64,000 nt of DNA, from positions 868,001-932,000 of the forward strand of contig NZ_NEVM01000002.1 in assembly GCF_002261225.1 (NCBI RefSeq), given 5' to 3'. This DNA is from Bordetella genomosp. 10. Its GTDB lineage: Bacteria; Pseudomonadota; Gammaproteobacteria; Burkholderiales; Burkholderiaceae_B. Shown piece by piece: positions 48,694 through 54,828 of the stretch (position 1 is its first letter; each line of letters starts with the position of its first letter). The notes beneath the pieces were generated by a model. That model searched no databases and was not told where the DNA came from. It saw nothing but the letters and a program-made list of their open reading frames with translations. The position numbers and the translations under genes were made by a program.

Positions 48694-51342
48694 ATGCCCA
48701 TGAACCTGCCAGGCCCCAAGCGGAAGCGGTTGCCGCTCATTCTCGTCCTTGTCCGCCTGGGTGTTTGCCTGCGTATTTGCCTCTTCGCCTGCTTCACCGC
48801 TTGCCTGGGCTTGTCTGTGCATGCGTCCATGGCGCATGCGTCCGCTGACCGCGGTGAGATCGTGACCGTTGCGGCGCGCGGCGGCGAGGCGTCCTTGCTC
48901 GCACGCAACGATGCCATGGCCGCGCCGGCGGCGCACGAGGCGGCGGCCGTTCCGGCGCCGAACGCCGCCGTTCCCGTCCCGGTCATGAACGGTCCCGGAC
49001 CGCTGCGGGACCAGGCCATTCCGGTGGCGGTGTTCTGGCGCGAGATCTTTCCGGCCATGCTGCTGGTGCTGGCCTTCGCGGTGGTGCTGTCGCTGGCCTA
49101 CGTGCAGTTGCGGCGCGAAGTCGCGCGCCGGCGCGCCGCGGAATTGCGCCTGGAGGCCGCGCGCGACCTGGCCGACAGCGCCTCGCTGGCCAAGGCGTCC
49201 TTCTTCGCCACCATGAGCCATGAGATCCGCACGCCGCTCAGCGGCATCATCGGCATGCTGGACCTGCTGCGGCGCGGGGCGATGGACGACGACCAGCGCC
49301 AGATGATGGCCGCGGTGGACACCGCCGCCAATGCCTTGCTGCAGATCCTCGACGACGTGCTGGATTTCTCCAAGGCCGAGGCCAACCGCATGAGTCTGGA
49401 GTCCGTGCCCGTCGATTTGCGGGCCATGGTCCATAGCGTGGTCATGGTGATCGGCGAGCCGGCGCGGCGCCGCGGCGTGCGCACGATGCTGCGCGTCGAT
49501 CCCAACGTCGGCAGCGAGGTGCGGGGCGATCCGCTGCGCATCCGGCAGATCCTGTCCAACCTCATGAGCAACGCGGCCAAGTTCACCCACCAGGGGCAGG
49601 TGACGCTGGCGGTGTCGGTGGATCGCAGCGGCGCCGGCGAGCAATGGCTGCGGTTCAGCGTCAGCGATACCGGCATCGGCATTCCCCACGCCAAGCTGGC
49701 GCAGGTCATGGCGCCTTATCGCCAGGCCGATGGCGCCACCAGCCGGCGCTATGGCGGCACGGGCCTGGGACTGTCGGTGTGCAGCCGGCTGGCCGCGCTG
49801 ATGGGCGGCGCCATCACCTTGAACAGCATGCCGGGGCGCGGGACCACGGCCACGTTCACCTGCCGCTTCGCGGTGACCGCCGGTCCGCCGGCGCCGGCGG
49901 TCGCGTTGGAGCTGGATATCGACAGCATCGCCAACCGCGTGGACAGGCCGCCTCGGCGTCATCAAGTGGTCGCGGCGCGCGCCGGCGCCGGGGCCAGGGC
50001 GCATGCCGGGCCTGGGACGTTGGGGCAGGGGACGCTGGGGCAGGGGATGCCGGGCCAGGCGACGCCGCGGCCGGGGCTCGCGTTGGCCGCGCCCGTGAGA
50101 GGCGGCGAGCCTGGGGCCGGCGCCGACAATGCCGAGGCCGGCGCGGCGCGATCAACGGGTATGGCGTTGTCGGCTGGCGTTGCGCCATCGGCGGGTGCGA
50201 AGTCGTCGACCGGTGCGGCGTCCTTCAACGATGCGGTGTCGTCGGTCAACGCGACCTCATCGGCCGGTGCCGCGTCATCGGCTGACGCGACTGCATCGGC
50301 TGGTGTAGCGTCATCGACCGGCACGATGCCATCGGTTGGCGCGGCATCGGCGACCGGCGTGGCGGCGGGCGGCGTGCCTCGCATCCTGGTGGTGGATGAC
50401 CATGCGATCAATCGCGAAGTGGTGCGGCGCCAGTTGGTGGCATTGGGGTATGCCTGCGACGTGAAGGAGGACGCGCCATCGGCGCTGGCGGCCTTGCGGC
50501 ACGGCGGCTACGCGCTGCTGCTGACCGATTGCCAGATGCCGCCGATGAACGGCGGCGAATTGGCGCGTGCCTGGCGCGACATCGAGGCATCGCGTGGCGC
50601 GAAACAACGCATGCCCATCGTGGCCATGACCGCGACGGCCGAGCGGGCCTTGCCCGCCGCCGCGATCTGCGAGGCGATCGATGCCTGCCTGTACAAGCCG
50701 GTAAAACTGGACGCCTTGCGCGAAATGCTGACGGAATGGGTGCCGGCGCCGGTTGGGCTTTCCGGCGCCGCGCCTGCGTCGAACGCATCGAATTCATCGG
50801 ACGCATCGAATGTATCGAATGTATCGGGCGCGTCAGGCGCGTCGAGCGGGCCAGGTGGGTCGGGCGTAGCGGGTGGATCGAACACAGAGGCGTCGGGCGC
50901 ATCGAGTGCGCCAGGCTCCTCAGCCACATCAGGCGCCGGCGGGGCGGCGTCGGCCGCCGGGGCCGCGCCGTTGCAGGGGCTGGATCTCGATGGCTTGCGG
51001 GCGCAGTTCGGCGATGCCTTGGCGGCGCGGCGATTCGCGCTGCAGTCCTTGCAACTGTTGCGCGACGACCTGGCGCAGGCGCGCGGTCCCTTGTGCGCGC
51101 AGTTCTATGGCCAGGTGGCGCGCTGGCTGCACCGCAGCGTGGGGGCGCTGAGCATGCTGGGGCATTGGCCCGTGGTCGCCGATTGCACCCAGTTGGAGAA
51201 AGCTATGGAGCAGGCCATCGCCGAACCGGACAAGGCCGCGGACCGCGCCGAATTGCTGTCTCGCCTGGCGGCGGTGCTGCGCGACTTCGAGGACACCTTG
51301 CGGGAAATCGAACGGGAATTGCATACCCGGACGCCGGCCTGA
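48694..51342 (+). CDS. Hybrid sensor histidine kinase (BvgS-like core, no Venus-flytrap domains) with repeat linkers
   Basis: An 882-residue hybrid kinase. A first membrane helix (about 14-40) and a short, Ala-rich periplasmic part of about 70 residues precede a second helix (about 112-132). HisKA has His176 in SHEIRTPLSG, then a HATPase with DTGIGIP and GGTGLGLSV. A low-complexity linker (484-555) of hexapeptide repeats leads to a receiver with Asp568/569, phospho-Asp612 and Lys668. A second linker (695-730) of tripeptide repeats leads to an HPt domain with His813 in LHRSVGA. BvgS has the same His-Asp-His core but with two Venus-flytrap and a PAS domain, absent here. No response-regulator gene is adjacent. 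Confidence 0.9.
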   Translation: MPMNLPGPKRKRLPLILVLVRLGVCLRICLFACFTACLGLSVHASMAHASADRGEIVTVAARGGEASLLARNDAMAAPAAHEAAAVPAPNAAVPVPVMNGPGPLRDQAIPVAVFWREIFPAMLLVLAFAVVLSLAYVQLRREVARRRAAELRLEAARDLADSASLAKASFFATMSHEIRTPLSGIIGMLDLLRRGAMDDDQRQMMAAVDTAANALLQILDDVLDFSKAEANRMSLESVPVDLRAMVHSVVMVIGEPARRRGVRTMLRVDPNVGSEVRGDPLRIRQILSNLMSNAAKFTHQGQVTLAVSVDRSGAGEQWLRFSVSDTGIGIPHAKLAQVMAPYRQADGATSRRYGGTGLGLSVCSRLAALMGGAITLNSMPGRGTTATFTCRFAVTAGPPAPAVALELDIDSIANRVDRPPRRHQVVAARAGAGARAHAGPGTLGQGTLGQGMPGQATPRPGLALAAPVRGGEPGAGADNAEAGAARSTGMALSAGVAPSAGAKSSTGAASFNDAVSSVNATSSAGAASSADATASAGVASSTGTMPSVGAASATGVAAGGVPRILVVDDHAINREVVRRQLVALGYACDVKEDAPSALAALRHGGYALLLTDCQMPPMNGGELARAWRDIEASRGAKQRMPIVAMTATAERALPAAAICEAIDACLYKPVKLDALREMLTEWVPAPVGLSGAAPASNASNSSDASNVSNVSGASGASSGPGGSGVAGGSNTEASGASSAPGSSATSGAGGAASAAGAAPLQGLDLDGLRAQFGDALAARRFALQSLQLLRDDLAQARGPLCAQFYGQVARWLHRSVGALSMLGHWPVVADCTQLEKAMEQAIAEPDKAADRAELLSRLAAVLRDFEDTLREIERELHTRTPA
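50143..50358 (+). repeat. In-frame 18-bp minisatellite, 12 units, encoding hexapeptides
   Basis: Twelve consecutive 18-base units, each coding a degenerate hexapeptide of the form x-x-S-S-x-G (for example ATSSAG, AASSAD, VASSTG). Units vary in sequence but keep the period exactly. They make the linker between the kinase and receiver domains (residues 484-555). Because the unit is a multiple of three, copy-number change would alter only linker length. Confidence 0.8.
50776..50883 (+). repeat. In-frame 9-bp minisatellite, 12 units, encoding tripeptides
   Basis: Nine-base units such as GCATCGAAT and GTATCGAAT repeat twelve times, coding tripeptides ASN, SSD, VSN, VSG, ASG and so on (residues 695-730). 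They form the linker between receiver and HPt domains. Several neighbouring units are identical or differ at one base, so recent slippage is likely. Confidence 0.75.
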
Positions 51343-51385: not shown

Positions 51386-52777
51386 TTACAACCAGCTCGT
51401 ATCGCCCCAGGGACTGAGCAGGCCCGTCACCGAGGCGACCGATCCGTCGGGCAGGCGCACGGCGGAGCCGTTCAGCTCCACCTCGTGGTATTGCCGGTCG
51501 GCGCACAGCAGCCGCGCGCGCAGGCGGCGCGCGGCGTCCGGCTTGCCGGTGCTCTCCACCCACGCCAACAGCCGCGCCCGGTCGTCCTCGTGGACGTAGG
51601 ACAGCCATTGTTCGACCGTCGTATCCGGTTGGCAGGCCGGCCCGTAGGGCGAGGGGAAGTCCCCCAGCCAGATCACCCGCCGGGTATCCGGAAAGAACTC
51701 CCAGGCCAGGTGATGGCTGGTGCGCAGGGCCGACTGGAGCTGCTGCTTCCAGGCCACGGCTTCGCGCGTCGCGCGTTCCCGGTCGGCGCTGAGCGCGCCG
51801 AGCAGCAGGCTGAGCAGGGCGGCCGCGCCCAGGAACCCCTGTATCGCCACCAGGGGCACGCCGCCCGCTCCGCCATAGGGCCCCAACCCGCTCAGGGTGT
51901 ACGAGCCGGTGACGATGGCCAGCCCGGTGACCACCAGCGTGCAGCCCGCCTGGCCCCACGCCACCGCGACGAAGGCGAGGAACACGAGCGGCGCGTAGGT
52001 GAGGTCCGCGGCGGGCCGGCCCTGCCACAGCCAGTCCGACCATTGCTTGTTGAAGACCAGCGTGGTGCCGGCGAGCAGGGCGAAGGCGGCGGCCAGCCCC
52101 AGCCAGAGGTAGCGCAGGTCCTGCTCGGCGAAAGCCTGCGCGCGCCAGTTCGACCAGGCGACCACCAGCGGCGTGGCGATCAGGCAGCCGACGAAGGCGG
52201 CCTGCGTCCAGATATACCAATGCTGCGTGTCGATGCCGTGATCGACGGCGTGCAGCCCCTGGGCCACCAGCCAGCCCCCCGCCACCGAGGCGGCGGCCAG
52301 CGGCACGATGAACCACAGCACGCTGCCGACGCGCGCGAGGCTGCGCCGGTCCACCGTGCCCCAGCGCCAGACCGCGGCGACGGCGCCGCAGAGCGCCAGG
52401 TCGCCGGCGGCGAAGACGAGGGCCGCGGGCAGGCCGCGCTGGGCGACCAGGACGCCGCTGGCGACGTGCAGGGTGGCCGCCAACGCCATCCAGCCCGGCC
52501 AGCGGCGCGGGCAGCTCAGCATCAGCGCCGCCAGCAACAGGCCGGCGGGCGGCCACAGCAGGGTGGACATCGTCACCGCGTCGCGGTCGCGCATGCAGAG
52601 CACGGCCAGCAGCCCGTAGGCGAGCACGAAAGCGAAGCGGAGAAGGAAAGCGTTGCGCGCCACGTTGGTGGATGTTGGCGTCACGTGGGCGAAGATCGTG
52701 AGAGAAAAAAGCAAGATACCGAAGCGTTGCGCGCATGGCAAGCATCGGCGGCGCGACGATGCAGGATTCCAAAACAT
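51386..52777 (-). CDS. MASE1-PAS sensory protein without output domain
   Basis: A 463-residue protein. Eight or so membrane helices (about 20-335) look like a MASE1 sensor domain (LLWPPAGLLLAALM; GYAPLVFLAFVAVAWGQAG-like blocks). The C-terminal part (about 350-455) looks like a PAS domain, with WVESTGKPDAARRLRARL and GSVASVTGL. MASE1 proteins usually carry GGDEF, EAL or kinase domains; none follows. The start is uncertain: ATG at 52777 or GTG at 52684. It ends 43 bases from the hybrid kinase, facing it, and may pass a signal by protein contact, but this is inference. Confidence 0.78.
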   Translation of the reverse strand: MFWNPASSRRRCLPCAQRFGILLFSLTIFAHVTPTSTNVARNAFLLRFAFVLAYGLLAVLCMRDRDAVTMSTLLWPPAGLLLAALMLSCPRRWPGWMALAATLHVASGVLVAQRGLPAALVFAAGDLALCGAVAAVWRWGTVDRRSLARVGSVLWFIVPLAAASVAGGWLVAQGLHAVDHGIDTQHWYIWTQAAFVGCLIATPLVVAWSNWRAQAFAEQDLRYLWLGLAAAFALLAGTTLVFNKQWSDWLWQGRPAADLTYAPLVFLAFVAVAWGQAGCTLVVTGLAIVTGSYTLSGLGPYGGAGGVPLVAIQGFLGAAALLSLLLGALSADRERATREAVAWKQQLQSALRTSHHLAWEFFPDTRRVIWLGDFPSPYGPACQPDTTVEQWLSYVHEDDRARLLAWVESTGKPDAARRLRARLLCADRQYHEVELNGSAVRLPDGSVASVTGLLSPWGDTSWL

Positions 52778-52922: not shown

Positions 52923-54770
52923 ATGCTGCATCCGACCCGATTCCTTTCCCCGGCCAGGCCGCCGTGCGCGGCCCGGGGGCGCATCGCGCGCGCGCTGGCG
53001 GCGCCCCTGGCGGCCGCGGTCCTGGCCGGCATGGCGGGCGGCCTGCCGGCGGCGCCGGCGCGGGCCGCGTCGCTGCCCGCCGTCGAGGCGCGCCACGGCA
53101 TGGTGGTCAGCTCGCAGGCGCTGGCGGCGCGCGTCGGGGTGGACATCCTCGAGCAGGGCGGCAACGCCATCGACGCCGCGGTGGCGGTGGGCTATGCGGA
53201 AGCCGTGGTCAATCCCTGCTGCGGCAATATCGGCGGCGGCGGGTTCATGACGCTGCACCTGGCGGACGGGCGCGATCGCTTCATCGATTTCCGCGAAACC
53301 GCGCCGGCGGCGGCGCGGCCGGATATGTACCAGGACGCCGGGGGACGGCTGGTTCCCGGCGCCAGCCTGTACGGTTATCGCGCCGTGGCGGTGCCGGGCA
53401 CGGTCCTGGGGCTGGACACGGCGCAGCGGCGCTACGGCCGGCTGACGCGCCTGCAGGTGATGGCGCCGGCCATCGCGCTGGCGCGCGACGGTTTCGTGCT
53501 CACGCGCGCCGATACCGACATTCTCGACGTCGGCGTGCGGCATTTTCGCCAGGACGCGGAAGCGGCGCGCATTTTCCTGCGTGCCGACGGCAGCCCCTTG
53601 CAGCCCGGCGACCGGCTGGTGCAGACGGACCTGGCCCGCACGCTGCAGGCGATTGCCGAGCAGGGGCCCGACGCCTTCTACCAGGGCCGCATTCCGGCGG
53701 CGGTCGAGGCCGCGTCGCGCGCCGGGGGCGGCGTGATCGCGGCGGCGGACTTCGCCGCCTATCGCGCGGCGGGCGTGGGCGATACGCCGCCGCTGCGCTG
53801 CGCCTATCGCGGCTACGTCTTCGTCTCGGCGCCGCCGCCGAGTTCCGGCGGCACGACGCTGTGCCAGATCCTCAACGTCCTTTCCGGCTATGACCTGCGG
53901 GCCATGGGCTACGGGTCGGCCCAATCGGTCCACGTCATGGCGGAGGCGATGCGCCATGCCTATCTGGACCGCAACATGCTGCTGGGCGATCCCGCCTTCG
54001 TCGACAACCCCCTGGCGCATCTGCTCAGCGCTTCGTACGCGGCGCGGATACGCGAGCGCATCGAGCCGGACCGTGCGACGCCGTCCGCCGCGCTGGCGCC
54101 GGGCGTGGCGCCGCACGAAAAGCCCGAGACCACGCATTATTCCGTCATCGACAAGGACGGCAACGCGGTGTCCACCACCTATACGATCAACGGCCGCTTC
54201 GGCGCCACGGTGATCGCGCCGGGCACGGGTTTCTTCCTCAACGACGAGATGGACGACTTCACCACCAAGGCCGGCGCCCGCAATCTGTTCGGCCTGGTGC
54301 AGGGCGAGCGCAACGCCATCGCGCCGGGCAAGCGGCCGCTGTCGTCGATGGCGCCCACGCTGGTGACCTGGCGCGGCAAGCCGTACATGGTGCTGGGCTC
54401 GCCGGGTGGATCGCGCATCATTACCATCATCCTGGAGACGGCGCTCAACATCATCGACTACGGCATGACGCCGCAGGAAGCGGTGGACGCGCCGCGCGTG
54501 CATCACCAATGGCTGCCCGATGAGATCTACTACGAGAAGTACGGCCTGTCGCCGGACACGCTGGCCGTGCTGCGCGGCATGGGCTACCGCATGGTCGAGC
54601 AAAGCCCGTGGGGCGCCGCCGCGCTGATCCTGGTGGGCCTGCCGGGCCTGAGCCACGCGCCGGCGTCGAGTTCGGGCAACGACGCGGGCGTCTCGGGGGC
54701 CGTGCGCGAAGGCTATCTGTACGGGGCCAACGACGCGCGGCGACCGGCGGGCGCGGCGATCGGTTATTGA
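52923..54770 (+). CDS. ggt: Gamma-glutamyltransferase
   Basis: A 615-residue periplasmic enzyme. The signal peptide is long (about residues 1-47), and SSQALAARVGVDILEQGGNAIDAAVAVGY is the family opening. The autoprocessing nucleophile is Thr403 in the run ETTHYSVIDKDGNAVSTTYT; GSPGGSRIITIILETALN is also conserved. The precursor cuts itself before Thr403 into two subunits. It cleaves glutathione and transfers gamma-glutamyl groups. The start at 52923 is preferred because AAGGACG precedes it. The 145-base gap upstream holds AAACATCC and GGATGTTT arms 23 bases apart. Confidence 0.93.
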   Translation: MLHPTRFLSPARPPCAARGRIARALAAPLAAAVLAGMAGGLPAAPARAASLPAVEARHGMVVSSQALAARVGVDILEQGGNAIDAAVAVGYAEAVVNPCCGNIGGGGFMTLHLADGRDRFIDFRETAPAAARPDMYQDAGGRLVPGASLYGYRAVAVPGTVLGLDTAQRRYGRLTRLQVMAPAIALARDGFVLTRADTDILDVGVRHFRQDAEAARIFLRADGSPLQPGDRLVQTDLARTLQAIAEQGPDAFYQGRIPAAVEAASRAGGGVIAAADFAAYRAAGVGDTPPLRCAYRGYVFVSAPPPSSGGTTLCQILNVLSGYDLRAMGYGSAQSVHVMAEAMRHAYLDRNMLLGDPAFVDNPLAHLLSASYAARIRERIEPDRATPSAALAPGVAPHEKPETTHYSVIDKDGNAVSTTYTINGRFGATVIAPGTGFFLNDEMDDFTTKAGARNLFGLVQGERNAIAPGKRPLSSMAPTLVTWRGKPYMVLGSPGGSRIITIILETALNIIDYGMTPQEAVDAPRVHHQWLPDEIYYEKYGLSPDTLAVLRGMGYRMVEQSPWGAAALILVGLPGLSHAPASSSGNDAGVSGAVREGYLYGANDARRPAGAAIGY

Positions 54771-54808
54771 AATACAGAATTTGAAGTACGGGATTTGAAA
54801 TACAGGAT
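54767..54808 (+). repeat. 14-bp tandem repeat, three copies, at the ggt stop
   Basis: TTGAAATACAGAAT, TTGAAGTACGGGAT and TTGAAATACAGGAT follow each other without a gap, and a fourth partial copy TTGAA begins at 54809. The first unit carries the TGA of ggt. The block ends about 20 bases before the slyX ATG, so it forms nearly the whole leader between the two genes. Confidence 0.8.
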
Positions 54809-54828
54809 TTGAACCAGAGTACGGCCAC

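Follow-up and report, generated by a model that had tools for sequence, protein, structure and literature searches.

We analyzed a 64,000-nucleotide stretch of the Bordetella genomosp. 10 genome (contig NZ_NEVM01000002.1, positions 868,001 to 932,000; hereafter the window, in whose numbering all coordinates are given), focusing on the gene of a hybrid histidine kinase, P0001. The linker between the HATPase and receiver domains of this kinase contains an array of twelve 18-base-pair (bp) units, which are translated in frame as degenerate hexapeptides. The array has decayed, it is absent from the orthologous linkers that were read at the DNA level, and the linker itself is spread over a wide range of lengths among related kinases. 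We consider it probable that the linker serves as a weakly constrained, disordered tether in which in-frame repeats arise and disappear.

The twelve units follow one another in frame 0 of the gene, six codons each, with no insertions or deletions between them. Within the array, sequence identity was 0.566 at a lag of 18 bp (z = 6.0), 0.650 at 36 bp (z = 8.3) and 0.562 at 54 bp (z = 5.1); when codons were shuffled (mean identity 0.385, standard deviation ~0.03), none of 5000 shuffles was as high as the array at any of these three lags. This confirmed the original prediction, made from the nucleotide sequence without database searches, of twelve in-frame 18-base units in exact register between the HATPase and receiver domains. 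Shuffles restricted to synonymous codons, which keep the protein, matched or exceeded the lag-36 identity in 2 of 5000 cases. Since the lag-36 signal alone survived synonymous shuffling, the 36-bp step joining units 7–8 to units 9–10 is the clearest event at the DNA level. Within the array, Tandem Repeats Finder reported only this duplication (Table 1) and a repeat at 50257-50321 (18 bp × 3.6, 65% match). Across the units, G at position 16, T at position 10 and C at position 11 are each found in 11 of the 12. Codon usage was compared with the gene from its start to the end of the HATPase domain, plus the receiver: all 17 serine codons of the array are of the TCN type, compared with 14 of 27 in these reference parts (Fisher p = 0.0005), and GGT is used for 5 of 9 glycines in the array, against 3 of 35 (p = 0.005). 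A GC-rich, low-complexity linker could also acquire an 18-bp period by chance, with no duplication at all. The sequence is indeed GC-rich and most of the lag-18 signal stems from the amino acid sequence; nevertheless, the codon shuffles at all three lags and the departure of serine codon usage from the rest of the gene render this explanation very improbable.

No two units are identical. The mean inter-unit identity is 0.589, the two most similar units agree at 15 of 18 bases, and exact repeats inside the array reach 9 bp at most. Over the 66 unit pairs, the proportion of synonymous differences (pS) was 0.52 and that of nonsynonymous differences (pN) was 0.36. Coding variable-number tandem repeats (VNTRs) and contingency repeats are near-perfect and polymorphic, and impure tandem repeats slip less than pure ones. 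The array resembles a coding VNTR in having in-frame tandem units able to alter the length of the protein; in contrast to an active one, it is decayed and has no near-identical, slippable units. With units this degenerate and exact repeats of 9 bp or less, the array is expected to slip rarely, and active slippage is unlikely. An assembly artefact is likewise an unlikely source of the array, whose exact repeats are too short to mislead assembly. The hexapeptides had been described as following the pattern xxSSxG. Only three of the twelve units (AKSSTG, ATSSAG and VASSTG) contain the full motif; the firmer pattern is serine at residue 4 followed, at residue 6, by a residue that is small or turn-forming and most often glycine. 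Within the window there was no sign of a dispersed repeat family: the unit consensus (≤3 mismatches) matched once, inside the array, with 0.55 matches expected by chance, and 34 of 100 shuffles gave one match or more. In a plasmid search with 172 records, the 20 best rows were all matches to one dehydrogenase region and offered no context for the array.

Orthologous loci were compared at the DNA level. In three of them, from Bordetella sp. LUAb4, Achromobacter sp. HZ34 and Achromobacter aloeverae, the nine window genes tested are arranged in the same order; the substrate-binding protein gene (43239) was unmatched in A. aloeverae, and the dehydrogenase gene (55182) was matched partly in LUAb4, at the end of the locus. 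The kinase cores of these syntenic orthologues are 89.6–90.9% identical to that of P0001. The linker DNA of the three orthologues, and that of Bordetella sp. N, lacks the 18-bp array altogether, instead of carrying it at another copy number. When up to 7 mismatches were allowed, the unit consensus gave 15 in-frame hits in the P0001 linker, 12 of them in one phase, and between 0 and 4 hits in each of six other genes, not enough to form a series; the count for P0001 is inflated, because the consensus was derived from this very array. Unit 1 is the only unit with a clear counterpart among the orthologues read, namely in LUAb4 (Table 1), and P0002 carries AARSAG too at the protein level. Unit 1 is probably the ancestral seed of a private expansion. 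After AARS, the LUAb4 linker has a weak periodicity (lag 9, z = 3.0; lag 18, z = 2.5), and an older repeat common to LUAb4 and the window lineage is possible. Tandem Repeats Finder reported just 2.2 copies of an 11-bp unit in the LUAb4 linker and no repeat in the linkers of HZ34, A. aloeverae and B. genomosp. 9. In the same linker, Bordetella sp. N (locus L030) has a different in-frame array (12 bp × 5.5, 90% match) with exact repeats up to 20 bp. This array is much purer than the 18-bp array and is more likely than the latter to be changing in length actively.

In a protein search, 7990 candidates were scored and 6907 hits returned, of which the best 120 (P0001–P0120) were used. P0001 is the representative of a 90% cluster with three member sequences, and the closest full-length homologue after it has 65% identity. 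The best 28 hits constitute one group with support of 100/100 in a tree of 119 of the best 120 hits (P0038 omitted), which was midpoint-rooted for drawing only and carries long-branch warnings; where named, the members of this family belong to Bordetella and Achromobacter. The kinase core has 241 residues in 26 of the 28 members and 240 and 268 in the other two. The HATPase–receiver linker ranges from 41 to 170 residues over the family (median 73.5), with the longest in P0001, and linker identity between P0001 and five close relatives is just 0.38–0.50. Linkers differ even between closely similar kinases: P0002 and P0003 (98% core identity) have 159 and 132 residues, P0022 and P0024 (98%) have 65 and 79, and P0018 and P0021 (93%) have 49 and 119, in a pair table that omits the truncated P0027. 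Periodicity of the linker at the protein level, taken for each member as the best of up to 12 lags, reached z of at least 3.0 in nine of the 28 members, and exceeded 4 in P0002, P0006, P0021, P0022 and P0024 besides P0001. Linker repeats are recurrent in the family, not the rule. The part of the original prediction concerning variable linker length is borne out by these relatives, whereas its view of the array as an active slippage locus is not supported, given the short exact repeats, the divergence of the units and the lack of the array in the four close orthologues.

Several observations weigh against a tether that changes freely. P0017 and P0020 (99.6% core identity) have linkers of equal length (51/51), as do P0014 and P0024 (95%; 79/79), and in five close pairs (93–96%) the linkers are only 1 to 3 residues apart. 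Nineteen of the 28 members are without a strong linker period, and a strong linker array was present in two of the six genes scanned (P0001 and Bordetella sp. N). Synonymous shuffles equaled or exceeded the lag-18 identity of the array in 603 of 5000 cases and the lag-54 identity in 1015 of 5000; therefore, the DNA signal beyond that of the protein consists of codon usage and the lag-36 identity. Members of the close clade largely have the first linker quarter in common, and the linker is therefore not wholly free. Finally, the lower pN and the recurring serine at residue 4 could reflect selection on residues. Under such selection, a Ser/Ala/Gly stretch would either be kept soluble and disordered or bind the kinase, and its composition would matter instead of its length. 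In addition to pN being below pS, the share of A, S, G, T and P speaks for this explanation (62% in the family linkers, compared with 43% in the inserts and 30% in the receivers of more distant relatives, the cousins described below), and so does the common first quarter, where AlphaFold2 predicted a short strand and helix at residues 403-415. However, a contrast of pN with pS carries little weight when the 18-bp units compared are saturated, and the linker identity between P0001 and its close relatives is low. We consider selection on the residues unlikely and favor the weakly constrained tether.

The AlphaFold2 model predicts that the HATPase–receiver linker is a disordered interdomain tether. 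The predicted local distance difference test (pLDDT) is almost wholly below 50 for residues 415-556, and residues 416-560 are without secondary structure; the linker thus combines an unstructured model with a low-complexity composition. Rich in Ala, Ser and Gly and without a fixed length, it would tether the receiver to the ATPase domain and may keep the receiver near the phospho-histidine. In the lineage of P0001, an ancestral AARSxG stretch would have been copied, possibly in 18-bp and then in 36-bp steps, with only the frame-keeping steps surviving and the copies later drifting apart, while in some other lineages different repeats occupy the same linker. Linker length would be weakly constrained, with phosphotransfer presumably working at the different lengths, so that the array would mainly document how repeats arise and wear down, and would not act as a regulatory dial.

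Such a dial was the proposal of the original prediction, in which in-frame 18-bp slippage would alter tether length, tune the rate of phosphotransfer and make output vary heritably. In its favor, the unit length is divisible by three, relatives differ widely in linker length, including some with near-identical cores, and three separate arrays occupy the two relay linkers of this one gene. According to Tandem Repeats Finder, these are three of the four top-scoring tandem arrays in the window; the two besides the 18-bp array (Table 1) had gone unmentioned in the original prediction. The repeat in the receiver–Hpt linker is purer than the 18-bp array. However, slippage should be rare with a longest exact repeat of 9 bp and no identical units, and in the close orthologues read the array is missing altogether, not present with other unit numbers. 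In a simple polymer model (a chain of 140 residues, parameters assumed), the effective concentration of the receiver would be ~0.5 mM and one added unit would lower it by ~7%. The same estimate would be 3.6 times higher without the 72-residue array, and would span 12-fold between linkers of 41 and 170 residues. Because of this change of ~7% per unit, a single slip event would be a weak dial; large differences in linker length between lineages might matter for the relay. With this small step, and with the BvgS precedent discussed below interpreted as weak selection, tuning of phosphotransfer by length is unsupported, and we regard a length rheostat as improbable.

The remaining proteins of the tree set, P0029–P0120, are referred to here as cousins. 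Their kinase–receiver lengths were taken by motif distance, which mixes true linkers and inserted domains, and three of the 92 (P0034, P0036 and P0109), none of them within the 86-row tree group described next, were unmeasured; in the tree, these three wrongly carry the insert-length label, so that its 69 rows with this label comprise 66 measured ones and these three. The P0001 family falls in a supported group of 86 (100/99), in which 55 rows are of the insert-length type and 3 are short. Sixty-six of the 89 measured cousins, P0041 among them, have 120–185 residues between kinase and receiver, and a profile of this insert from the 66 sequences matched receivers (HHalign, 94.8%). Hybrid kinases in which a degenerate receiver separates the kinase from the true receiver include RcsC and ShkA, both named in PMC9981736. 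Cousins of this type, such as P0041, group with the P0001 family in the tree; their insert is receiver-like, whereas the family linker resembles neither the insert nor receivers. The idea that the linker is a remnant receiver found no backing, with HHalign values of 0.1% for the family linker against the cousins' insert and 0.0% against receivers. A fair reading is that a receiver-like domain was lost and a variable tether followed, the direction of the tree being limited by the midpoint root and long branches. It is unlikely that, beyond this, the linker is a recurrent site of in-frame repeat birth in which an elastic tether replaced the folded receiver-like domain and length resets by new repeats in several lineages were selected for altering the gain of the relay.

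Low-complexity interdomain tethers of bacterial regulators are known as Q-linkers. The P0001 linker is similarly flexible, variable and low in complexity, but it is much longer, is rich in Ala, Ser and Gly, and has a tandem periodicity. In BvgS, Herrou et al. (2009, PMC2737282) found over 82 isolates that linkers preceding the kinase do not vary, except for one residue in Tohama I; the kinase–receiver linker (linker C) has 20% variable positions, and the authors consider that the linkers within the relay are most likely not under strong selection. Linker C has the same place and the same domain order as the P0001 linker, and it too changes faster than the domains. It contains ~27 residues (by modelled domain limits) and varies by substitutions, whereas the P0001 linker has 170 residues, tandem repeats and interspecies changes in length. 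The P0001 family extends the variability of the BvgS linker from substitutions to length. A literature search that did not include most subscription papers turned up no account of tandem repeats in a kinase–receiver linker.

In EvgS, as described in PMC4494823, the relay runs from the kinase histidine to the receiver, then to Hpt and to a separate regulator. EvgS and BvgS have the order HisKA-HATPase-REC-Hpt, which P0001 matches with an Hpt-like domain in the last place, and the three candidate phospho-sites in P0001 are H174, D610 and H811. In the family alignment, the phospho-acceptor H174 in HisKA and D610 in the receiver are kept in all 28 members, and H811 in 27, the odd one being a truncated protein. 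With HisKA, HATPase_c and a receiver that retain their phospho-sites, P0001 has the core of an unorthodox hybrid kinase. For Hpt, the Pfam match is below the curated cut-off (19.6 vs 24.6 bits, E 0.0011, for the fragment; 15.9 bits, E 0.015, for the whole protein), and six of the 28 members match at E 0.1. Hpt domains usually have lysine three residues past the phospho-histidine; in the family, the residue three after the H811 position is valine (13), leucine (13) or threonine (1). A structure look-up covered the kinase and receiver only; the 50 rows listed include no Hpt chain, which says nothing about Hpt. The AlphaFold2 model is modest overall (mean pLDDT 66.4; predicted template modelling score 0.38), and parts of HisKA are low too (residues 167-181 with pLDDT below 50). 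On this model, the helix at residues 13-35 may be a signal or first membrane helix, and that at residues 109-172 may be a membrane helix continuing into the kinase dimerization helix, in a tentative topology.

In P0001, Pfam gave no SBP_bac_3 (Venus flytrap) match at E 0.1, at which one of the 28 family members matches, and no PAS match; the AlphaFold2 model is without a domain between the membrane segment and HisKA. Since neither a Venus flytrap nor a PAS domain was found, unlike in EvgS and BvgS, P0001 is not BvgS in the strict sense, and the earlier description of the kinase as BvgS-type was loose. Several relatives carry the automatic name BvgS. The family member P0028 (884 residues) has a solute-binding, Venus flytrap-like domain, the only one among the 28, which suggests that the sensor part of the family was lost or swapped. 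With family hidden Markov models at E 0.01, no other receiver or kinase was found in the window's open reading frames of at least 60 residues, and hence no partner response regulator there.

Table 1. Features of the P0001 gene and its product, in window coordinates
Feature	Coordinates	Strand	Details
Hybrid histidine kinase gene (P0001)	48700..51342	+	880 residues, HisKA-HATPase-REC-Hpt-like
N-terminal hydrophobic helix	48736..48804	+	residues 13-35; AlphaFold2 helix
Long helix	49024..49215	+	residues 109-172; AlphaFold2
HisKA	49192..49383	+	Pfam residues 165-228, above curated cut-off
HATPase_c	49525..49866	+	Pfam residues 276-389, above curated cut-off
HATPase–receiver linker	49870..50379	+	170 residues; family alignment, AlphaFold2
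First linker quarter	49870..50007	+	VTAGPPxPAVxLDLDIDS..., largely common to the P0001-P0006 clade
Second in-frame array, HATPase–receiver linker	50014..50076	+	15 bp × 4.2, GTLGQ GTLGQ GMPGQ
Array of twelve degenerate 18-bp units	50143..50358	+	residues 482-553; hexapeptides, in frame
Unit 1	50143..50160	+	AARSTG; LUAb4 has AARSAG at the same place, 15/18 bases the same
36-bp higher-order duplication, units 7-8 and 9-10	50258..50339	+	Tandem Repeats Finder 36 bp × 2.3, 78% match
Receiver domain	50383..50730	+	Pfam residues 562-677, above curated cut-off
Receiver–Hpt linker	50743..50985	+	81 residues; family median 26
In-frame 9/18/27-bp repeat, receiver–Hpt linker	50775-50831	+	SNASNSSDASNVSNVSGASGASS; exact repeats up to 13 bp
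Hpt-like helical domain	50986..51327	+	AlphaFold2 helices 763-876, ten-residue blocks pLDDT 81-97

Two further observations concern the surroundings of the kinase gene. A gene for a MASE1 protein (51386-52777) is convergent with the kinase gene and stays adjacent to it in the three syntenic loci; its product matches PAS_3 below threshold, and no output domain was found in it. Further along, at 54767-54813, a 14-bp unit, TTGAAATACAGGAT, is repeated three times in tandem, at the end of and just past a gamma-glutamyltransferase-like gene. In the three syntenic loci this unit has no tandem copies, just scattered matches with 2 or 3 mismatches.

The P0001 family provides a natural length series, in which a single kinase family with a near-fixed catalytic core carries tethers of 41–170 residues. 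With this series, the importance of tether length in a multistep phosphorelay can be tested directly. If length is irrelevant, the family would be a clear case of a signaling protein that tolerates repeat expansion; if length matters, it would represent a new way of tuning a relay.

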